A stretch of 64,000 nt of DNA, taken from NCBI RefSeq assembly GCF_003075455.1, contig NZ_QDAE01000008.1:1-64000 (forward strand). Direction: 5' to 3'. Below, piece after piece: positions 1,001 to 37,068 of the stretch. The translations under genes and the position numbers were made by a program. The notes under the pieces were generated by a model. The model was not told the origin of the DNA, made no database searches, and was given only the letters and a program-made list of their open reading frames with translations. Position 1 is the stretch's first letter. Every line of letters starts with the position of its first letter. This stretch comes from Arthrobacter sp. Bz4 (GTDB taxonomy: Bacteria > Actinomycetota > Actinomycetes > Actinomycetales > Micrococcaceae).

Positions 1001-2092
1001 AACATCCCGAGCCCCCTCTCCAACCGGTCCTGGGCTGCTGAGGCCATCCGCCGGATCGAGGCTGAAAACAACCGGTCAGCCGACACTCATCTCTACGCGG
1101 TCCCCCTGCCTGAACACTGGGGAGTCGACCTGTTCCTGAAGGACGAGTCGACCCACCGGACAGGCAGCCTCAAACACCGATTGGCTCGGTCGCTCTTCCT
1201 GTTCGGACTGGTCAACGGCTGGATCAACGAGCATACGACGGTCGTTGAGGCGTCCAGCGGGTCGACGGCGGTTTCCGAAGCGTACTTCGCGCAGCTTCTG
1301 GACCTGCCGTTCATCGCTGTGATGACCCGCACCACGAGCAAGGAAAAGATCGACCAGATCGAACAGTATGGCGGCGCCTGCCACTTCGTTGACCACGCCT
1401 CCGAGGTTTACGCCGCCGCAGCAGGCCTTGCCGCCACGACTGGCGGCCACTACATGGATCAATTCACTTACGCTGAGCGGGCAACGGACTGGCGTGGCAA
1501 CAACAACATCGCCGAGTCGATTTTCGGGCAGCTGGCCCTGGAGCAGCATCCGGTTCCCGACTGGATCGTGGTGGGCGCCGGGACGGGCGGCACCAGCGCC
1601 ACCATCGGGCGTTACATCAGGTACCAGCGCCACCACACCCGGCTGGCCGTGGTCGACCCGGAGAACTCGGCTTTTTATCCGGCCTGGCGTACCCCCGGCA
1701 CCGCGGCGGCGGGGAGTCCTTCCCGGATTGAGGGCATCGGACGGCCGCGGCTGGAACCAAGTTTTGTACCCGGCGTCATTGACCACATGATTCAGGTCCC
1801 CGACGCCGCGTCGGTCGCGGCGATGCGCCACCTACGCCAGCTCACCGGACTGCATGCGGGCCCGTCAACCGGCACCAACCTGTGGGGAGTCTGGGGGCTG
1901 ATCGCGGACATGGTCGGCCAGGGTCGCCGCGGCAGTATTGTCTCGCTGATGTGCGACGCCGGCACCAGATACACCGGGTCCTACGACGACGACGCCTGGC
2001 TGGCAGCGCGGGACCTGGATCCAGCCCCCTACCTGGCAGTGCTGGAGCGCTTCTTTGTCACCGGGAGTTGGCCCGGTGATCCTGCCAGATAG
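998..2092 (+). CDS. cds1: PLP-dependent cysteine synthase-fold enzyme, L-cysteine desulfhydrase-like (Cds1 type)
   Basis: A 364-residue fold-type II PLP enzyme. The Schiff-base lysine is near residue 59 in TGSLKHR, followed by the substrate loop EASSGSTA and the phosphate-binding glycine stretch GAGTGGTSA. The N-terminal segment beginning [10 protein letters not shown] matches the actinobacterial group that includes Mycobacterium tuberculosis Cds1 (Rv3684), which converts cysteine to pyruvate, ammonia and sulfide. This naming rests on recalled similarity and was not computed; a cysteine synthase role cannot be excluded. The start is GTG with a leaderless -10 just upstream. The divergent neighbour is a sulfurtransferase, supporting a function in cysteine breakdown or sulfide supply. 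Confidence 0.82.
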
Positions 2093-2124: not shown

Positions 2125-3783
2125 ATGACTGATTCCCTGGTACTTGGCCCCATGATGCGCTACGTCGATCTGACCTCGGCCAGCATCTGGGTGGAAACCC
2201 GCCAGACTGCACGGGTCACGGTGACGGCCGGTGACCAGTCCTGGACTGCCCGGACGTTCGGTGTGCATGGCCACCACTACGCCCTGGTGGAGGCTAACGG
2301 TCTGGAACCGGGAAGCGTCACCGCCTACACGGTGTCGATTGATGGGGAGCAGGTGTGGCCCGTGGAAGGGTCAGCGTACCCGCCGTCAATGATTGCGACG
2401 CTGACCCCTGACAAGCCCATCAAAATGGCGTTCGGTTCGTGCCGGACCAGTGTCCCCCACAACGAAGCGAGAAACAGTAAACACGGTGTCGATTCGATGC
2501 GTGCCTACGCCCTGCAGATGGCCGCGGGAGTGGACGACGTCGCCTGGCCCGATCTGGTGGTGTTCCTGGGCGACCAGGTGTACGCGGATGTGACGAGTGA
2601 CGCGATGCAGGAGTTCATTAGGGCGCGCCGGGACATTGACGAGGAGCCCGGGGAGGAGCTCAAGGACTATGAGGAGTACGCCCACCTGTACAACCTGGCG
2701 TGGTCCGACGACGCCAACCGCTGGCTCCTGTCCACCCTGCCCAGCGCAATGATTTTCGACGACCACGACATTCGGGACGACTGGAACACCTCCCTGGCCT
2801 GGAAGCACGCGATGGAGGCTACCTCCTGGTGGCAGGGCCGGATCGTCTCGGGGCTGGCTTCCTACTGGGTGCACCAGCACCTGGGCAATCTTTCACCCGA
2901 GCACCGGGACCAGGACGAGATCTGGCAGTTGATCAGCTCGCACGACGGCGAGACGGAACTGGACATCAGCAACGTGCTGGACCAGTTCGCTGACCGGGCC
3001 AATCAGGAGCCGTCCACCTACCGGTGGAGCTTTGCCAGGGAAATTGGTGACGTCCGACTGGTGGTCCTGGACTCCCGTGCGGGCCGGGTACTCGACCCCG
3101 CCCAGCGGTCAATCCTCGACGACCGGGAAATGAAGTGGCTGGATGGACAAATGCAGGGCGGCTTCCGGCATCTGCTGATCGCCACCTCGCTGCCGTTCCT
3201 GCTCCCTGCGGGTTTGCACCACATCGAAGCCTGGAACGAGGCACTCGCCGACGGCGCCTGGGGCAGGTTTGGGGCGAAGATCGGCGAAAAGATGCGGCGC
3301 ACTGTGGATCTGGAGCACTGGGGTGCGTTCCAGCGAAGCTTCCGACAAGTGGCGACGATGGCGGTTGAGGTGGCAGATGGGAAGCGTGGCAAGGCACCCG
3401 AAACCGTCACCTTCCTGTCGGGGGACGTGCACTTCTCGTATGTCTCCGAGGTGGAGCGCACCTCCGGGAGCCGGATCATCCAGGCGGTCTGTTCGCCGAT
3501 CCGCAACCCGCTCCCCCGCGCCATGCGTTTTGCTACCGCCATCCTGTCCTACGGCGTCGCAAGCCCGGTGGGGGCACTGGTGGCCCGGTCGGCGAAGGTG
3601 CCGAGTCCGCCCTTCCGCTGGTCCGGGCTGAAAGGCCCCTGGTTCGACAACAACCTGGCCGGCCTCGAAGACGGCCCAGCCGGTCTGCGGTTCTGGTGGG
3701 AGCGCGGGGTGGTGGTCGACGGCGACCACCTCTCACCCCGGTTGGAAGAGGTCTCCACGGTGACCGTCTCACCGCGGAACTAG
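2125..3783 (+). CDS. PhoD-like metallophosphatase (alkaline phosphatase D family)
   Basis: A 552-residue protein with a beta-rich N-terminal domain (about 1-95) followed by a PhoD-type metallophosphatase domain. Metal-ligand motifs visible are FGSCR, VVFLGDQVYAD, FDDHDIRDDWN and, near the C-terminus, LSGDVHFSYV. Classical PhoD is a Tat-exported phosphodiesterase, but no twin-arginine or Sec signal is present here, so this member is probably cytoplasmic, as in many Actinobacteria. The substrate is unknown. The ATG at 2125 follows the cysteine desulfhydrase gene by 32 bases, so cotranscription is possible, though AT-rich bases ahead of the start could also be a separate promoter. Confidence 0.88.
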   Translation: MTDSLVLGPMMRYVDLTSASIWVETRQTARVTVTAGDQSWTARTFGVHGHHYALVEANGLEPGSVTAYTVSIDGEQVWPVEGSAYPPSMIATLTPDKPIKMAFGSCRTSVPHNEARNSKHGVDSMRAYALQMAAGVDDVAWPDLVVFLGDQVYADVTSDAMQEFIRARRDIDEEPGEELKDYEEYAHLYNLAWSDDANRWLLSTLPSAMIFDDHDIRDDWNTSLAWKHAMEATSWWQGRIVSGLASYWVHQHLGNLSPEHRDQDEIWQLISSHDGETELDISNVLDQFADRANQEPSTYRWSFAREIGDVRLVVLDSRAGRVLDPAQRSILDDREMKWLDGQMQGGFRHLLIATSLPFLLPAGLHHIEAWNEALADGAWGRFGAKIGEKMRRTVDLEHWGAFQRSFRQVATMAVEVADGKRGKAPETVTFLSGDVHFSYVSEVERTSGSRIIQAVCSPIRNPLPRAMRFATAILSYGVASPVGALVARSAKVPSPPFRWSGLKGPWFDNNLAGLEDGPAGLRFWWERGVVVDGDHLSPRLEEVSTVTVSPRN

Positions 3784-25240: not shown

Positions 25241-25255
25241 TAGGTTGAAGGTATG
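25241..25255 (+). promoter_or_regulatory. Leaderless-type -10 of hisN
   Basis: TAGGTT (25241-25246) lies six bases before the ATG at 25253, the leaderless spacing. The intervening GAAGGT could also act as a poor Shine-Dalgarno sequence. Confidence 0.45.
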
Positions 25256-26062
25256 AACCACCGCCAAAGCTATAACGATGATCTGCGCCTTGCCCACGTC
25301 ATGGCCGATTCTGTAGACGACCAGACCATGTCGCGATTCAAGGCCCAGGACCTGGTGGTGGAGACCAAGCCAGACCTGACCCCGGTAACCGATGCCGATA
25401 AGGCTGCCGAGGAGTCGATTCGTGGCCAGCTCTCCCGCGCCCGCCCCCGTGACGCGGTGCTCGGCGAAGAGTTCGGAAGCAGTGGTGCCGGCTCGCGTCG
25501 CTGGATCATCGATCCCATCGACGGCACCAAGAGTTTTGTGCGGGGCGTCCCGGTCTGGGCCACCCTGATCGCGCTGATTGACGAGGGGCAACCGGTGGTC
25601 GGGTTGGTCAGCGCTCCGGCTCTGGGCAAACGCTGGTGGGCCGCCACCGGGACCGGCGCCTACATGGGCAAGTCCCTCGCGGCGGCAAGCCGGCTCAAGG
25701 TATCCAACGTGTCCCGGCTCGAGGATGCCTCGATGTCTTATTCCAGCCTCTCGGGCTGGAAGGAACGCGGGAACCTGCCGGAATTCCTGACGCTGACCGA
25801 CTCGGTGTGGCGCAGCAGGGCCTACGGCGACTTCTGGTCCTACTGTCTGGTTGCGGAGGGCGCAGTCGACATCGCCTGCGAGCCCGAGTTGAACCTGTAT
25901 GACATGGCGGCCCTGGTGCCGATCATCACCGAGGCCGGCGGGCGCTTCACCTCGCTGGAAGGCACCGACGGACCGTTTGGCGGGAATGCTTTGGCCACCA
26001 ACAGCACCCTCCACAATGACGTGCTGCAGATCCTCAACCCTGATGTTGATGACTTGCTTTAA
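25253..26062 (+). CDS. hisN: Histidinol-phosphatase (inositol monophosphatase family)
   Basis: A 269-residue IMPase-fold phosphatase. Metal-binding motifs are GEEFG near residue 73, DPIDGTKSF near residue 86 and the C-terminal NLYDMAALVPIITEAGG. The opening segment and the SYSSLSGW loop match the actinobacterial HisN group that dephosphorylates histidinol phosphate in histidine synthesis; action on inositol phosphate is the alternative. It stands alone, ended by a clear terminator at 26074. Confidence 0.9.
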   Translation: MNHRQSYNDDLRLAHVMADSVDDQTMSRFKAQDLVVETKPDLTPVTDADKAAEESIRGQLSRARPRDAVLGEEFGSSGAGSRRWIIDPIDGTKSFVRGVPVWATLIALIDEGQPVVGLVSAPALGKRWWAATGTGAYMGKSLAAASRLKVSNVSRLEDASMSYSSLSGWKERGNLPEFLTLTDSVWRSRAYGDFWSYCLVAEGAVDIACEPELNLYDMAALVPIITEAGGRFTSLEGTDGPFGGNALATNSTLHNDVLQILNPDVDDLL

Positions 26063-26073
26063 GAAGCCGTAAT

Positions 26074-26110
26074 AAAAAGCCTGGGGCGCCTGCCGTGCCC
26101 TAGGCTTTTT
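26074..26110. terminator. Bidirectional-looking terminator after hisN
   Basis: A 14-bp stem (26074-26087 with 26097-26110) with one G-U pair; the A5 and T5 ends form the lower stem and give a T run on either strand. It separates hisN from the SAM-IV riboswitch that starts six bases later. Confidence 0.88.
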
Positions 26111-26115
26111 CTATT

Positions 26116-26228
26116 GGTCACGAGTGTCAGCGCTAAACCCCGGTTTGCTGGCCGGCAACCCTCCTCTTCGCGGCGGGGTGCCCCGGGTGACGACCAGGCC
26201 GTCCCTGACTGGGATGGCAAGCGCGGAC
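26116..26228 (+). ncRNA. SAM-IV riboswitch
   Basis: About 113 nt match the SAM-IV class of Actinobacteria. Visible parts: the closing helix GGTCA/TGACGACC (26116 and about 26193), the helix AAAC-CCCG-GTTT, the invariant core GCTGGCCGGCAACCCTCC, the GGGGTGCCCCGGGTGA strand, and the 3' pseudoknot arm GGCAAGCGCGG (26216-26226). Compared with the recalled M. tuberculosis SAM-IV sequence, helix bases change in compensating pairs (AAGC/GCTT to AAAC/GTTT). It ends about 38 bases before the desulfurase ATG. A GGACACCC/GGGGTCC hairpin overlaps its 3' end and may be part of the expression platform. High SAM would lower expression. Confidence 0.9.
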
Positions 26229-26265
26229 ACCCTGCTGCGGGGTCCACCACCGTTGGAGATCCAGC

Positions 26266-27630
26266 ATGACTATTGCAACCATCGAGCCGTTCCACCATTC
26301 CACCTCAACCGTGAATCAGTTGGCGAAGGTGGTGGGAGATGACCTGTTGGTGCCGCTGCTTGGGGGCAGCGAGGTACGCTACGTCAATCTCGACTACGCC
26401 GCGTCCGCTCCGGCGCTGGTCGAGGTCCTCGACTTCGTCAATACGGTTATCCCCTTCTACGCCAGCGTCCACCGCGGCGCCGGCTACACCTCCCAGGTTT
26501 CCACCTCACTGTACGAAAATGCCAGGACAACAGTCCGGCGTTTTGTGGGTGGACGCAGCGACGACTTAGTGATCTTTACCCGCAACACCACCGACTCGCT
26601 GAACCTACTGGCCGGCTGTGTGCCCTCCACAGGGGAGGTGTTGTACCTGGATGTTGAACATCATGCCAACCTGTTGCCCTGGCAGCAGCTCCCCCACCGA
26701 AGCCTCACGGCCGGCGTGACGCTCGCCGACACCCTTGAGCGGGTCCGCGCCGAGCTATCCACGGGTGGGGTCAGTCTGCTGGCGGTCACCGGGGCATCCA
26801 ATGTCACCGGCGAGCTTCTACCGATCAGCGAGTTGGCTGAATTGGCGCACGCCCACGGGGCGCGAATCGTGGTGGATGCCGCCCAGCTCGCACCCCATCG
26901 TCGGATCGACATCAGCCGCGATGGTATCGACTATGTGGCATTCTCGGGTCACAAGCTATACGCGCCGTTCGGTGCTGGCGTGCTCGTGGGCCGTCCGGAC
27001 TGGCTGGACGCTGGCACCCCGTACCTGCCCGGCGGTGGAGCAGTGCGGAGGGTCAAAGTCGATTCAGTCTCCTGGGCCACCGGACCGGCCCGCCATGAGG
27101 GTGGCTCGCCCAACGTGGTGGGCGCCGCTGCCCTCGCGCATGCTGTCGAGGTGCTCGCGTCGCTGGACGAGGATGCCTGGCTGACCCATGAACAGGCCCT
27201 CCGGTCTGCGTTGACTTCCGGACTCGAAACGCTACCGGGGGTCACAGTGCACCAGCTTTTCCCGGACAGTGCCGACCCCATCGGGGTGGTGAACTTTTCG
27301 GTGTCCGGTTACGACGCCGGACTTGTCGCCGCGTATTTGTCTGCCGAACACGGGGTGGGCCTCCGCGATGGCAAGTTCTGCGCTCATCCCCTACTCAAAC
27401 GGCTCGGGCTGCCGTCGGGTTCGTTGCGGGCCAGCGTGGGTCTGGGATCCCAGCTCGCGGACGTCGAGCGGCTGCTGAGCGGCCTCCGGTCCCTCCTGGC
27501 CGATGGTCTCACCGCAGATTATGTAGTGGACGAGGAACGCTGGGTACCGGCCGCCGAGACACGAACCTTTCCGGTGTGGGCTCCCCACACTCCGGGGACG
27601 GCGGGCGCTGCGCCGTGCTCGAGGGACTAG
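26266..27630 (+). CDS. Aminotransferase class V protein, SufS-like cysteine desulfurase homologue
   Basis: A 454-residue fold-type I PLP enzyme. The Schiff-base lysine is in AFSGHKLYAPFGAG near residue 229, with VVDAAQLAPHRRID before it. A Cys in DGKFCAHPLL sits where the sulfur-accepting Cys of SufS enzymes lies, so cysteine desulfurase or a related C-S lyase activity is plausible. It is not within a suf operon and is preceded by a SAM-IV riboswitch, which ties it to SAM or methionine status. The ATG has GGAG about ten bases upstream. A methyltransferase follows 82 bases later. The precise substrate is unknown. Confidence 0.87.
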   Translation: MTIATIEPFHHSTSTVNQLAKVVGDDLLVPLLGGSEVRYVNLDYAASAPALVEVLDFVNTVIPFYASVHRGAGYTSQVSTSLYENARTTVRRFVGGRSDDLVIFTRNTTDSLNLLAGCVPSTGEVLYLDVEHHANLLPWQQLPHRSLTAGVTLADTLERVRAELSTGGVSLLAVTGASNVTGELLPISELAELAHAHGARIVVDAAQLAPHRRIDISRDGIDYVAFSGHKLYAPFGAGVLVGRPDWLDAGTPYLPGGGAVRRVKVDSVSWATGPARHEGGSPNVVGAAALAHAVEVLASLDEDAWLTHEQALRSALTSGLETLPGVTVHQLFPDSADPIGVVNFSVSGYDAGLVAAYLSAEHGVGLRDGKFCAHPLLKRLGLPSGSLRASVGLGSQLADVERLLSGLRSLLADGLTADYVVDEERWVPAAETRTFPVWAPHTPGTAGAAPCSRD

Positions 27631-27712
27631 CCTCAGCAGCTGGTGGGCCAGGAGGCGATTGACCGGTGCGGGATAGGCTTGGATCCCACCCATCGACAAC
27701 AGGAGCGCACAG

Positions 27713-28471
27713 ATGCCCCGCGGCGGCCCACGTCTGCACGACACCCGGCGAGTCCACCTCGCCGGCGGCTACCTGGACGGTGGTGCGCAGTACGACCGGG
27801 TCCGGCCCGGGTATCCCACCGACATTGTTGACTGGCTGATTCCCACCGGCGCGTCCGCCGCAGCCGACGTCGGCGCGGGCACCGGAATCTTCACCGCAGA
27901 ACTCGTGAGGTGTGGGCTGAAGGTGACCGCCGTCGACCCCTCGGCGGACATGCTGGGGGTCCTTAGCACCAAGCTCCCCGCTGTGGTCGCTGTCGTCGGG
28001 ACCGCCGAGGCCACCGGCCTGCCAGCTTCCTCGGTCAATCTGGTAACCATGGCGCAAGCCTGGCACTGGGTTGATCCGGTGGCAGCCACCACGGAGGCTG
28101 CACGGATCCTCACACCGGGAGGCCGCCTGGGACTGATCTGGAATCAGTTGGATGTTTCTTTGCCGTGGGTGCACCGGCTTAGCCGGATCATGCATGCCGG
28201 AGATGTCTACAAACCGGATCATCGGCCGGCGATTGGACGGGAGTTCGGGGCGCTTGAACAGCGATCGGCGCGGTGGGCGCAGCCGCTGGGCACCTCAGAT
28301 ATCGTCGACCTCGCCAAATCCAGAAGTTACTACCGTCGGGCGGGTCCAGAGATTCGGGCCAGGGTCGAGGCCAACCTCGACTGGTACCTCCACGAACATC
28401 TGGGATTCGCCGCCGATGCTCAGGTGGAGTTGCCGTACTTCACCCATTCCTGGCGGGCAGACCGCTTGTAA
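27713..28471 (+). CDS. Class I SAM-dependent methyltransferase
   Basis: A 252-residue methyltransferase. Motif I is ADVGAGTGIFTAEL near residue 55, acidic motif II is VTAVDPSADML, and a motif IV-like region reads MAQAWHWVDP. The layout (DGGAQYDRVRPGYP near the start) is common to a broad group with untested substrates. AGGAG lies nine bases before the ATG and a -10-like TAGGCT near 27673. Placement after a SAM-IV-controlled gene suggests, without proof, that both respond to SAM economy. Confidence 0.87.
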   Translation: MPRGGPRLHDTRRVHLAGGYLDGGAQYDRVRPGYPTDIVDWLIPTGASAAADVGAGTGIFTAELVRCGLKVTAVDPSADMLGVLSTKLPAVVAVVGTAEATGLPASSVNLVTMAQAWHWVDPVAATTEAARILTPGGRLGLIWNQLDVSLPWVHRLSRIMHAGDVYKPDHRPAIGREFGALEQRSARWAQPLGTSDIVDLAKSRSYYRRAGPEIRARVEANLDWYLHEHLGFAADAQVELPYFTHSWRADRL

Positions 28472-28496
28472 GAAGACCGGAACACTGTTGCTAAGG

Positions 28497-28521
28497 CATG
28501 CCAATGAGTTAGATTTAGGTA
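28497..28521 (+). promoter_or_regulatory. Promoter and possible MntR operator of the manganese-type ABC operon
   Basis: TAGATT (28510-28515) lies five bases before the ATG at 28521, a leaderless spacing. Immediately upstream, GGCATGCC (about 28496-28503) is an 8-bp perfect palindrome with AT-rich flanks. A DtxR-family regulator ends this operon, so an autoregulatory site is plausible, but the match to a known MntR box was not established. Confidence 0.4.
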
Positions 28522-29429
28522 TGCCGAAACTTTTCGTTCCGTTGGTTCTTCTTCTCGTACTGGCACTCACCGGCTGCGGTGCCAGCCCGGCCGTGCAGGC
28601 GAGGCCAGCCGACGACGATGACCGCCCGCTGGTGCTGACCACCTTCACTGTGCTCGCGGATCTGGCAGATCAGGTGGGCGGCGGGCACGTCAGGGTTGAT
28701 TCCATCACCAAAATCGGCGCTGAAATCCACGGCTACGACCCGACGCCGTCGGACCTGGTCAACGCTCAGGACGCCGATCTGATTCTCGACAACGGTCTGG
28801 GCCTTGAGCGCTGGTTTGAACGCTTCCTGCTTTCGGTGGATGCCCCGCGCGCGGTCCTCTCCGACGGCGTCGAGCCGGTCGACATTCGCTCTGGCGCCTA
28901 CAACGGACTGCCTAACCCCCATGCCTGGATGTCCCCCGCCGCTGCGCAGATCTACGTTGACAACATCGTGGTGGCCCTGACGGACCTGAGCCCACCGCAT
29001 GCCAACGATTTTGAAGCCAACGGATCCCGTATCAAGGCCGAACTGCAGTCCATGCTTGACGAGCTACGCGCTGCCTTCGCCGACACCTCAACCCCTGCCC
29101 TGGTCACCTGTGAGGGGGCCTTCTCCTATCTGGCGCGGGACGCGGGACTCGACGAGTCATTCATCTGGCCGGTCAACTCTGACGCTGAGGGCACACCGCG
29201 GCAGATCAGAGAGGTGATCGGTTTTGTCCAAACCAACGAGGTCCCGACCGTCTTCTGCGAATCGACTGTCAATCCGTCGGCGCAGGAGCAGGTTGCGTTG
29301 GCCACGGGCGCGGAACTGGCCGGGCCGCTGTACGTCGACTCGCTGTCCGGTCCGCAAGGCCCGGTTCCCACCTTCCTCGACCTCCTCCGGTACGACATCA
29401 AAGTAATTACTGAAGGGCTGGCCCCATGA
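28521..29429 (+). CDS. Manganese/zinc ABC transporter substrate-binding lipoprotein
   Basis: A 302-residue cluster-9 binding protein. The lipobox is ALTGC near residue 16-20. Metal ligands are suggested by EIHGYDPTPSDL, NPHAWMSPA and CEGAFSYLARD, the last resembling the EGAF Glu region of manganese binders such as PsaA/MntC. Unlike ZnuA in this window it has no His-rich loop. With a DtxR/MntR-type regulator in the operon, manganese is the favoured metal; zinc or iron remain possible. The ATG at 28521 is chosen because the long in-frame upstream extension overlaps the methyltransferase. Confidence 0.88.
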   Translation: MPKLFVPLVLLLVLALTGCGASPAVQARPADDDDRPLVLTTFTVLADLADQVGGGHVRVDSITKIGAEIHGYDPTPSDLVNAQDADLILDNGLGLERWFERFLLSVDAPRAVLSDGVEPVDIRSGAYNGLPNPHAWMSPAAAQIYVDNIVVALTDLSPPHANDFEANGSRIKAELQSMLDELRAAFADTSTPALVTCEGAFSYLARDAGLDESFIWPVNSDAEGTPRQIREVIGFVQTNEVPTVFCESTVNPSAQEQVALATGAELAGPLYVDSLSGPQGPVPTFLDLLRYDIKVITEGLAP

Positions 29430-30247
29430 CCTCATCCGTTCCACCGCAGGCCGTCACGCCGGGAACCGAGGCGGTTGCGGCCATCTCTGTCTCCGGCCTC
29501 ACCGTCAGCTACAACGAGGTGCGGGCACTGAGCGACGTCGACCTCAATCTGGCGAAAGCGCGCATCTGCGGGCTGATCGGCGTCAACGGGTCAGGCAAGT
29601 CAACCCTGTTCAAATGCCTGATGGGGCTGGTCCAGCCGCAGTCCGGCGCCGTTGCGATTTTCGGCAAAGACCAGCGCACCGCCCGGCGTAGCAACCTCGT
29701 GGCCTATGTCCCCCAATCCGAGGACGTCGACTGGACCTTCCCCCTCTCGGTGGGCGACGTCGTCCTGATGGGCCGCTACGGCCGAATGCCGCCGTCCCGC
29801 CGCGCCAGCCGTGCGGACCGCGACGCGGTCGACGCCGCACTGGAGCGGGTCGGCCTGACCCAGCAACGCAACCGGCAGATCGGCGAATTGTCCGGCGGGC
29901 AGAAGAAGCGCGCCTTTGTTGCCCGCAGCATCGCCCAGGACGCGCAGCTACTGCTCCTCGATGAACCGTTCGCGGGAGTGGACAGGACCAGCGAAGCCAC
30001 GCTGGTCAGTCTGCTCCAGGAACTCAGGGACGAGGGACGGACCGCTCTCATCTCCACCCACGACCTCGCCGGGATCCCCGAGCTCTGCGACGAAGCGGTA
30101 CTGCTGCACAACCGGGTCCTCGCGCATGGGCCGCCCTCCGAGGTGCTGACCCATGAGTTGTTGGCTCTCGCGTTCGGGCCGCTACCCACGGCAGGTGGCG
30201 CCTCTCGTCCCCGACCCGCACCCGCACCCGCACCCGAAGAAAGTTAG
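29426..30247 (+). CDS. Manganese-type ABC transporter ATP-binding protein
   Basis: A 273-residue ABC ATPase. Walker A is GVNGSGKST near residue 52, the signature LSGGQKKR, Walker B LLLLDEPFAGVD and the switch His ISTHDL. It has a Pro/Ala-rich C-terminal tail (PRPAPAPAPEES). The start overlaps the binding-protein gene by four bases (ATGA). It powers metal import with the next gene's permease. Confidence 0.92.
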   Translation: MTSSVPPQAVTPGTEAVAAISVSGLTVSYNEVRALSDVDLNLAKARICGLIGVNGSGKSTLFKCLMGLVQPQSGAVAIFGKDQRTARRSNLVAYVPQSEDVDWTFPLSVGDVVLMGRYGRMPPSRRASRADRDAVDAALERVGLTQQRNRQIGELSGGQKKRAFVARSIAQDAQLLLLDEPFAGVDRTSEATLVSLLQELRDEGRTALISTHDLAGIPELCDEAVLLHNRVLAHGPPSEVLTHELLALAFGPLPTAGGASRPRPAPAPAPEES

Positions 30248-30255
30248 ACCACGCC

Positions 30256-31185
30256 ATGGAAGTCCTCAATTTCCTCACCGAGCCGCTGCAATACGGCTTC
30301 CTGACCCGCGCCCTGATCGTCACTGTCTGCGCGGCGGTCGTCGCGTCGGTGCTGTCCTGCTGGCTCATCCTGATGGGCTGGTCGCTGATGGGCGACGCCG
30401 TTTCCCACGCGGTGCTGCCAGGCGTCGCCCTGGCCTACATCATCGGCATCCCCTTCTCCATCGGCGCCTTCGTGTTCGGGGCCGGGGCGGTTGCGCTGAT
30501 CGGGCTGGTGAAGTCGACCACCAAGCTCAAGTCGGACACCGTCATTGGGGTGGTTTTCACCGGACTTTTCGCCTTGGGGCTCGCAATTGTGTCCCGTACT
30601 CCCTCCCAGGTTGACCTGATGCATATTCTGTTTGGGAACGTGCTGGGTGTAACCAACGGGGAACTGTGGCAGGTGGTCGTCCTTGGCGTGCTGACCCTCG
30701 CCATCGTCCTGTACAAACGCCGCGACCTCACACTCTTTGCCTTTGACCGCACGCATGCGCACGTGATCGGGCTGAATACCCGGGCGCTCTCCACCCTGCT
30801 GCTGGGTCTCCTGGCGCTGAGCGTCGTCGTCGGCCTGCAGGCGGTGGGAATCATCCTGGTGGTGGCCATGCTCATCACCCCCGGCGCCACAGCCTTCCTG
30901 CTGACCCGCAGCTTCGACCGGATGCTGATTATCGCCTCGAGCCTCACCGCGGCCGCGTCGGTCGCCGGCATCTACGCCAGCTATTACCTGGACATCTCGA
31001 CCGGTGCTGCCGTGGTGCTGTCCCAGTCGCTGGTCTTCGTCCTGGTGTATCTCTTTGCCCGGCGAACCGGGGTCCTCTGGCAGGCGGCAAGCCGGCGTCG
31101 GTTGCGCCGCTACTCCTCACAGGAAAACCACACCCGGACTCGGAGAATCAACACCACTGGCGTCCCCACGAGAAGTGAGACCTGA
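30256..31185 (+). CDS. Manganese-type ABC transporter permease
   Basis: A 309-residue ABC-3 family permease with about eight to nine membrane segments. Visible are CWLILMGWSLMGDAVSHAVLPG, the conserved early loop, and LQAVGIILVVAMLITPGATAFLL near residue 200. The tail (about 280-309) is basic and hydrophilic. It lies eight bases after the ATPase gene and one base ahead of the regulator gene, all apparently one operon. Confidence 0.91.
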   Translation: MEVLNFLTEPLQYGFLTRALIVTVCAAVVASVLSCWLILMGWSLMGDAVSHAVLPGVALAYIIGIPFSIGAFVFGAGAVALIGLVKSTTKLKSDTVIGVVFTGLFALGLAIVSRTPSQVDLMHILFGNVLGVTNGELWQVVVLGVLTLAIVLYKRRDLTLFAFDRTHAHVIGLNTRALSTLLLGLLALSVVVGLQAVGIILVVAMLITPGATAFLLTRSFDRMLIIASSLTAAASVAGIYASYYLDISTGAAVVLSQSLVFVLVYLFARRTGVLWQAASRRRLRRYSSQENHTRTRRINTTGVPTRSET

Positions 31186-31186
31186 G

Positions 31187-31927
31187 ATGGCACAACGGAC
31201 AGCTTCGGCGCTTAGCGCCGGGTCAACGAGCGTTCAGGACTATGTGAAGGTCATCTATACCTTCACTGAATGGCAGGATCGGCCAATAACCGCCTCGCAG
31301 CTTGCGGCCCGACTGTCGGTAGCCAATTCCTCGGCATCGGAAATGGTCCGCAAGCTGATGGATCTGGGCCTGGTGAGCCATGAGCCCTACAGCTCAGTCG
31401 AGCTGACCGCAGATGGGCTGCATCTGGCGTTGACGATGGTACGCCGTCACCGTCTTCTGGAGACCTTCCTGGTGAACGAACTGGGCTATCAGTGGGACGA
31501 GGTTCATGACGAGGCGGAACTGTTGGAGCACACTGTCTCCGACACGTTCATCGAACGCCTCGACCGGAAGCTTGGGCATCCCGGGAGAGACCCGCACGGG
31601 GATCCGATCCCCACCGCCGACGGGAAGATCACCCTGCCGAACGCCCATGCGCTGGAGGAGCTCGACGACGGGCACCGCGGCCGTATCACCCGGATCAGCG
31701 ACGCAAATCCGGAGCTGCTCCGGTTCCTCGCCGCTGAATCCATTGCCCTTGACTCTCCCGTGCAGGTCCTCCAGCGGAAACCGTTCGGAGGCCCCTTGGT
31801 GGTCAGCGTCGGCGATACGGGCACCGCAAGGACTTTCGATTTCGGCGAAGAGCTGACGACTTCGCTGTGGATTGAGACTGATCAGGTTCATGCCGGATGC
31901 CGCCTGCCCGAAGCGGCGGTCCGCTAG
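31187..31927 (+). CDS. mntR: DtxR/MntR-family metal-dependent regulator
   Basis: A 246-residue regulator. The N-terminal winged helix (about 15-75) includes SQLAARLSVANSSASEMVRKL; the dimerisation/metal domain (about 76-150) includes MVRRHRLLETFLV; an SH3-like FeoA domain makes the C-terminus. In the family, bound Mn2+ or Fe2+ activates repression. Being the last gene of a manganese-type ABC operon suggests a manganese sensor, though an IdeR-like iron role is not excluded. The ATG at 31187 lies one base after the permease stop. Its own stop overlaps the convergent crcB stop by four bases. Confidence 0.88.
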   Translation: MAQRTASALSAGSTSVQDYVKVIYTFTEWQDRPITASQLAARLSVANSSASEMVRKLMDLGLVSHEPYSSVELTADGLHLALTMVRRHRLLETFLVNELGYQWDEVHDEAELLEHTVSDTFIERLDRKLGHPGRDPHGDPIPTADGKITLPNAHALEELDDGHRGRITRISDANPELLRFLAAESIALDSPVQVLQRKPFGGPLVVSVGDTGTARTFDFGEELTTSLWIETDQVHAGCRLPEAAVR

Positions 31928-32803: not shown

Positions 32804-32833
32804 CCTGCCTCTATCGAGTGTCAAAGGCAGGAA
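32804..32833 (-). promoter_or_regulatory. Expression platform of the fluoride riboswitch
   Basis: The last aptamer strand, CCTGCCT, can instead pair with AGGCAGG, which overlaps the Shine-Dalgarno region of crcB about 8 bases before GTG 32797. The two structures exclude each other, so fluoride binding would free the ribosome site: a translational ON switch. This is read from complementarity only. Confidence 0.7.
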
Positions 32834-32890
32834 CCATCAGCCATGGTGGCGGTTCGGGCAGCGCCCCGGCGGGATCCATCGCCGTAGCCT
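32825..32890 (-). ncRNA. Fluoride riboswitch (crcB motif)
   Basis: On the minus strand the aptamer shows GGCGATGGATCCCGCC, then GAACCGCC, a GCC-accat-GGC hairpin, and GGCTGATGGTTCCTGCC, matching the crcB motif in order. P1 pairs GGAUCC with GGUUCC (five of six), and the GGCG/CGCC pseudoknot is possible. It lies directly upstream of the two crcB genes. Fluoride binding should raise expression. Confidence 0.9.
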
Positions 32891-33025
32891 CGACTATATC
32901 GGATTGCCAGTTGGACCCGGTAGGCGGTCCAGCATTAGCCGTCAGCAATTCGAGGATGCAATGATCACTATCAGCACAAGTTGTTCCACCCCATCTACCC
33001 GCACCCATCTAGCCAAAGGTTCCAC

Positions 33026-36682: not shown

Positions 36683-36700
36683 AGCCGTCGGGCTGTTTCG

Positions 36701-37068
36701 TGGAGATGGCGGGAATTGAACCCGCGTCCGATGCAGTGTAGTCAGGGCTTCTCCGGGCGCAGTTTGCGTCGGTTTTTCTCAGCTTCAGCAGTTCTGCAAA
36801 CAGACTGCTGCCAAGCTCAGTTACATAAGAGTCCCCCGGAAACCTGTAACAAGTTTCAGGAGCAGTGGCCCTCTAAATGACGCCAGGATCCGGGACGAGA
36901 GCATTCCCGGGCTGACGGACTTGGTCTTACTGCTTAGGCAGCGAGAGCGAAGTCAGTGCGTTTTTGTTCGGCACTTATATTTTAACAAGGAGCGTTAACG
37001 AGATAGCCTTGTAAATCCTCGGCCCGCTTCCCCTGTCGCGACTAACATCGTCGAAACCTGTCATCCCC
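36701..37068 (-). ncRNA. ssrA: Transfer-messenger RNA (tmRNA)
   Basis: The tRNA-like ends are clear: 5' GGGGATG pairs with 3' CATCTCC (one G-U pair), followed by encoded CCA at 36701-36703, and the T arm GGGTTCAATTCCC is intact. The tag reading frame encodes AEQKRTDFALAA followed by TAA, the typical hydrophobic LAA degradation end. Pseudoknot regions lie after the tag. tmRNA with SmpB frees stalled ribosomes and marks the truncated proteins for proteolysis. smpB is a short distance upstream on the same strand. Length is about 368 nt. Confidence 0.97.

Follow-up and report, generated by a model that had tools for sequence, protein, structure and literature searches.

SAM-IV riboswitches and desulfurase-like genes in actinobacteria

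The closest described counterparts of the locus analysed here come from two streptomycetes. In the entries consulted for S. lividans TK24, a SAM-IV riboswitch is placed before SLIV_26975, annotated as a cysteine desulfurase (PMC8079986), and the relevant passage on S. clavuligerus places one before the class-V PLP gene CRV15_21540 (PMC8269248). The pairing of a SAM-IV leader with a gene of this kind is partly known, being in print, in these portions of the two reports, as annotation for two Streptomyces. Existing annotations of the family include cysteine desulfurase, class-V aminotransferase and thiamine-related protein. A search of the open-licence PubMed Central literature by titles and the beginnings of abstracts found no study of the role of the enzyme. 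What is new here is the breadth of the pairing, the separation of the enzyme from SufS and a hint of a connection with rhodanese and MetZ.

Sequences, samples and thresholds

The window, that is, the whole 64,000-nucleotide stretch of DNA analysed, comprises positions 1–64,000 of the forward strand of contig NZ_QDAE01000008.1 of Arthrobacter sp. Bz4 (GCF_003075455.1). DES is used as a working name for the gene of a class-V PLP enzyme located behind the SAM-IV leader (Table 1). The close-relative set consists of the best 80 of 589 relatives and covers Micrococcaceae, Jiangella, Nocardia, Rhodococcus, Prescottella and Gordonia, as well as two oddly labelled records. The class sample included 197 genomes, in which DES was accepted at E 1e-110 or better; MetZ was counted as present at E 1e-180 or better. 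The model used for the leader search at DES loci was built from 18 SAM-IV sequences, the window's among them. Protein motifs were counted in 147 proteins, comprising the 80 close relatives (best 80 of 589) and 67 class-set proteins, which partly overlap. For the DES phylogeny, 95 rows (78 DES, 12 SufS/CsdA, three TIGR01976-like and two IscS) were placed in a quick maximum-likelihood tree. The gathering score of the SAM-IV model RF00634 is 38 bits, and the curated cut-off of the SufS model TIGR01979 is 475.1 bits.

Table 1. Features of the DES locus in the window (positions are those of the window).
Feature	Position	Strand	Evidence or remark
hisN-like histidinol-phosphatase gene	25253..26062	+	NCBIfam TIGR02067, 300.2 bits (cut-off 275.15); context, outside the unit
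Terminator-like hairpin and T tail after hisN	26088..26105	+	3' arm overlaps the -10-like hexamer
-10-like hexamer TAGGCT	26101..26106	+	15 bases 5' of the aptamer start
Predicted SAM-IV riboswitch aptamer	26116..26229	+	RF00634, 105.1 bits, E 2.7e-18
Possible expression-platform hairpin GGACACCC/GGGGTCC	26225..26245	+	5' arm overlaps the aptamer 3' end
Shine-Dalgarno-like GGAGA	26255..26259	+	sequence; precedes ATG at 26266
DES, SufS-like class-V PLP enzyme, 454 aa	26266..27630	+	K230 and C372 present; cysteine near the C terminus
Class-I methyltransferase-like gene	27713..28471	+	Methyltransf_11, E 3.9e-17; 82 bases after the DES stop

The SAM-IV leader and its surroundings

The original prediction assigned the leader to the SAM-IV class, and the Infernal search (cmscan of the whole 64-kb window) bears this out: RF00634 was matched over its full length (model positions 1–116) with a score exceeding the gathering score (Table 1). 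The Bz4 genome has four SAM-IV leaders in all, this one included. The predicted riboswitch would bind SAM and control the expression of the gene behind it.

Of 80 related loci (best 80 of 589), 59 have a hisN-like gene upstream of DES. The hairpin behind hisN was the one terminator-like site found within 25900–28700, and it is weak taken alone because shuffled sequences average 1.6 such sites. In 63 of 81 leaders a TANNNT hexamer precedes GGTCA, the aptamer start, by 13–17 bases; the remaining 18 belong without exception to Nocardia, Rhodococcus, Prescottella and Gordonia and, as judged by eye, carry TTGACA some 37 bases ahead of that point. Both hexamers are taken here to be promoter elements. 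A strict sigma-70 scan of 25900–28700 returned no promoter. It seems that the DES leader probably has its own promoter directly behind hisN.

How the switch may operate is suggested by a hairpin that uses the last bases of the aptamer. In 50 of the 78 leaders (of 81) that could be analysed, such a hairpin was better than shuffled sequences at p 0.05 or less (median p 0.0275; the sequences are related), and its two arms vary together across leaders, as judged by eye. The window's own hairpin reached p 0.105. It is inferred that this hairpin competes with the 3' end of the aptamer. Hiding of the Shine-Dalgarno sequence was rejected as a mode of control, the best stem reaching p 0.05 or less in just 3 of 78 leaders. 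No terminator-like site was found between the aptamer and DES in the window. Plain folding gave the leader a z of -1.65 and failed to recover the aptamer, the pseudoknot of which it cannot model. In the RNA-seq data of S. clavuligerus, as far as the passage on this leader goes, a premature transcript was recorded at the SAM-IV leader of the class-V PLP gene, and the drop into the gene was among the most extreme (PMC8269248); the premature transcript favours termination in that species.

The original prediction also allowed for a methyltransferase controlled together with DES. As was found by tblastn, such a gene follows DES in 60 of the 80 close loci (best 80 of 589), all of Micrococcaceae-type and two of them oddly labelled, with a gap of 30–188 bases in 57 loci and of 276, 297 (L080) and 1,509 bases in the others. 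It was not found within the fetched flanks of the 20 loci of Jiangella, Nocardia, Rhodococcus, Prescottella and Gordonia in the same set. This part of the prediction was not supported; the methyltransferase accompanies DES only at loci of the Micrococcaceae type.

Several other features of the window were recorded. A metal uptake cluster lies downstream of DES (28521–31924, +) and encodes a ZnuA-type binding protein, an ABC ATPase and an iron-dependent-repressor-type regulator. A Fluoride riboswitch (32821–32892, -; 43.5 bits, gathering 34) precedes two ORFs on the same strand that look CrcB-like by eye, and a tmRNA gene is located at 36698–37068 (-; 163.7 bits).

Conservation of the leader and DES pair

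Comparison of the genes downstream of SAM-IV leaders in other genomes, proposed together with the prediction, revealed that the pairing recurs. A SAM-IV leader is located directly upstream of DES in all 80 close relatives (best 80 of 589). In the class sample, DES was found in 68 of 197 genomes, the window's included, and a leader was present at 63 of these 68 loci, the window counted; two of the 63 (the window and G050) belonged to the search model's own sequences. The five loci without a leader were L227, L229, L230, L232 and L265, the stretch of the last of which may end short. At one locus (L216), two SAM-IV leaders stand back to back, at 1956–2073 (-) and 2175–2293 (+), the former preceding DES. 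Within the genus of the window, DES was detected in 9 of 38 genomes and not found in the other 29, so there appears to be no general need for it even inside the genus. The recurrence of a SAM-IV leader with DES in many actinobacteria points to an unstudied sulfur-handling step in methionine supply. A riboswitch labels the pathway that its gene serves, and a SAM-IV leader that accompanies a single desulfurase-like clade in many actinobacterial families suggests that the enzyme serves the methionine or sulfur economy.

Genes behind other SAM-IV leaders

The remaining three SAM-IV leaders of Bz4 stand before other genes. One leads into a gene of an AmiS/UreI channel (PF02293), after which comes an SfnB-like oxidoreductase (271.3 bits against a cut-off of 430.9). 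Behind another lies metX (456.1 bits on NF001209, cut-off 331), and behind the last are genes that look like MetQ/N/I-type by eye; some kilobases beyond these come an AmiS-like gene (also by eye) and a formamidase (694.5 bits, cut-off 500). Two oddities were seen in these loci: the AmiS/UreI and SfnB-like pair (L123, contig C37, 6064–8008, -) is odd for methionine control, and the MetQ-like protein at L125 (contig C30, 8012–9072, -) seems to be split over two frames in the assembly as deposited, being in one frame in a relative (L274).

Forty further SAM-IV loci of relatives (one of them, L296, just 332 bases long) were translated and their genes recognised by eye, with HMM checks for a part. 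The genes at these loci include metY, metX, methionine transporters and luciferase-type monooxygenases, as well as a CysD-like gene and an amino acid permease; DES itself appears three more times. No Fe-S assembly gene was noticed among the translated genes behind other SAM-IV leaders. One leader (genome G048, C76:4909–5014, -) precedes a NifH-type ORF (L301:1756–2736, -; TIGR01287, 401 bits, cut-off 394.35), the product of which may belong to a nitrogenase-like methylthio-alkane reductase. In M. avium, as stated in the portion of the report consulted, an O-acetylhomoserine sulfhydrylase lies behind a SAM-IV riboswitch (PMC3774663). As the other leaders precede metX, metY, methionine-uptake and organosulfur genes, DES is most likely a member of a methionine and sulfur-acquisition regulon, in line with the link to SAM and methionine made by the original prediction.

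The DES protein and its probable function

DES belongs to the Aminotran_5 family (E 4.6e-82), and its best NCBIfam match is SufS TIGR01979, at 273.9 bits, under the cut-off, compared with 561.4 bits for the housekeeping SufS of the Bz4 genome (contig C9). The amino acid sequence is 33% identical to E. coli SufS, 31% to CsdA and 34% to the SufS of Bz4. DES lines up with all three at the lysine of the GHK motif (K230), across the EHHA stretch, at the arginines and at C372 of RDGKFCAHP, so that the original description of DES as a SufS-like protein with a PLP lysine and a cysteine in the SufS catalytic position stands. In 28 aligned sequences, including that of the window, R367, D368, G369, F371, C372, A373, H374 and P375 are invariant. 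GHK is present in all 147 DES proteins and RxGxFCA in 145 of 147; the exceptions are L261, which keeps the cysteine in RHDRFCAHP, and L080 (Arthrobacter nitrophenolicus SJCon), whose deposited sequence carries a DES frameshift ahead of the catalytic loop. A cysteine within the last ten residues was found in 120 of 147 proteins, with L080 counted only via its frameshifted end. An either/or pattern of the loop and C-terminal cysteines was considered and rejected: where a loop could be defined (145 proteins), both cysteines occur in 11 and neither in 12.

The protein was expected to fall outside housekeeping SufS. In the tree, which gave long-branch warnings, a branch with an SH-aLRT of 99 separates the 78 DES rows from the 12 SufS/CsdA, three TIGR01976-like and two IscS rows, and no clustering inside SufS was seen. 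DES is indeed far from the suf genes, with SufB/D-type genes on contig C1, SufS on C9 and DES on C8. This distance is weak evidence because the housekeeping SufS itself is not beside sufB/D. Six window proteins around DES were scanned, and none proved to be SufE- or SufU-like.

Taken together, the riboswitch match, the conserved pairing with DES, the catalytic residues and the genes behind the other leaders are best explained by a SAM-IV-controlled enzyme that moves cysteine sulfur into methionine-related metabolism and not into housekeeping Fe-S assembly, a reading with a probability of roughly 0.6. When SAM is plentiful, the riboswitch would lower DES expression, presumably via the hairpin competing with the end of the aptamer, and when methionine or SAM is short, DES would be made. 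The enzyme would then take sulfur off L-cysteine by PLP chemistry, hold it as a persulfide on C372, as in SufS, and hand it to an acceptor in methionine-related metabolism. The sulfur route that the original prediction called not well described is a reasonable suggestion; the pairing itself is in print.

By sequence alone, DES might also act as a C-S lyase or a selenocysteine lyase. Methionine-type regulation would suit a beta-lyase equally well, and the PDB matches of DES include a class-V cystine C-S lyase (1elq, E 9.8e-10). DES might be a methionine-pathway C-S lyase, acting on cystathionine or another cysteine conjugate and releasing homocysteine, sulfide or a thiol with no persulfide involved. 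This is unlikely, given that 146 of the 147 proteins retain the catalytic-loop cysteine, a residue that desulfurases require and beta-lyases do not, and that the Bz4 genome already has a cystathionine-gamma-synthase-type enzyme (over the cut-off) and a cystathionine-gamma-lyase-like one. The simple idea of DES as a replacement for missing transsulfuration was rejected because, among 14 genomes of the genus searched, the seven with DES all retain cystathionine-type and MetY-type enzymes (the types in genomes other than Bz4 being judged by score group).

The identities to SufS and CsdA and the aligned key residues could also mean that DES is an extra Fe-S desulfurase, a SufS paralogue placed under SAM control since SAM-using and methionine enzymes need clusters. 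However, the score under the SufS cut-off, the separate clade and the methionine and organosulfur genes behind the other leaders, among which no Fe-S assembly gene was noticed, make this distinctly improbable. A selenocysteine lyase, or an enzyme for another sulfur product (thiamine, ergothioneine-like) merely placed in the SAM-IV regulon, is very improbable: the label 'Cysteine desulfurase (Thiamine metabolism)' in the S. lividans table, as far as that table goes (PMC8079986), and weak matches to SclA (NF040779, 125 bits, cut-off 525) and EgtE (TIGR04343, 55.6 bits, cut-off 400) favour it, but both scores are far under the cut-offs and SAM regulation points to methionine.

Rhodanese and MetZ as possible partners

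For the preferred reading, in which cysteine sulfur goes to methionine-related metabolism, a possible acceptor is suggested by sister species, in which a rhodanese gene (PF00581, 27.1 bits, cut-off 22.2) and then metZ (NF005870, 754.2 bits, cut-off 618) come after a SAM-IV leader. Among the 38 genomes of the genus, MetZ was found in eight of the nine that have DES and in none of the 29 in which DES was not found (Fisher p 1.8e-7, kinship ignored; the species are related and the points are not independent). The window's genome is the sole DES genome of the genus in which MetZ was not found, and a rhodanese search of it, run without a positive control, gave no match. Rhodanese adjoins MetZ in all 16 loci looked at by tblastn (L323 in part only), eight from the window's genus and eight from among the 20 class matches, the latter all belonging to one other genus. 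A SAM-IV leader precedes the rhodanese-MetZ pair in 7 of 8 loci of the window's genus and in none of the eight of the other genus.

A class-wide link was tried and rejected: DES occurs in 10 of 20 MetZ genomes and in 58 of 177 others (Fisher p 0.14, not significant). Nine of the ten MetZ genomes without DES come from one genus. The co-occurrence with rhodanese-metZ suggests a persulfide route from cysteine to homocysteine, which the lack of metZ in the window's genome and in 58 of the 68 DES genomes of the class keeps hypothetical; these gaps would confine a DES-rhodanese-MetZ relay to some lineages at most. In the portion of the Rhodococcus qingshengii proteomics report consulted, MetZ abundance did not change significantly between two sulfur sources (PMC8557817).

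A bolder version, tentative and rather unlikely, sees the whole DES clade as a SAM-controlled persulfide donor. Cysteine sulfur would pass via a DES persulfide and rhodanese to an acyl-homoserine sulfhydrylase and give homocysteine, with no free sulfide or cystathionine; the C-terminal cysteine of DES would perhaps be used too, and the sulfhydrylase would perhaps be MetZ, or MetY where MetZ is missing. If this is true, sulfur would be carried from cysteine to homocysteine on proteins. The conserved SAM-IV leader gives a widespread enzyme family a testable role and, with the rhodanese-metZ pair of sister species, a concrete hypothesis for protein-borne sulfur.

Comparison with known systems

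The leader shares with SAM-IV (RF00634) the full-length model match, the conserved core and the 3' CAAGCGCGG, and no essential difference was seen; the sequence of the 3' hairpin is variable, as it likewise is among the 18 aligned leaders. With the loci of SLIV_26975 and CRV15_21540, as annotated in the portions of the reports consulted, the locus has in common a SAM-IV riboswitch ahead of a gene annotated as a cysteine desulfurase or class-V PLP enzyme. The rows of the class set designated f37 have a longer loop after the catalytic cysteine, and their kinship with these two Streptomyces genes would be a guess.

In Wolinella, homocysteine is reportedly formed by a protein-thiocarboxylate route. 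The idea common to both is that protein-bound sulfur, not free sulfide, feeds homocysteine synthase, whereas the carrier suggested here is the rhodanese beside metZ in sister species. SufS and CsdA share with DES the Aminotran_5 family, the GHK lysine, the EHHA stretch, the loop cysteine and the flanking arginines. DES differs from them in the loop, which reads RDGxFCAHP instead of RxGxHCAxP, in the score under the SufS cut-off, in forming a separate clade, and in having a SAM-IV leader and, in many rows, a C-terminal extension.
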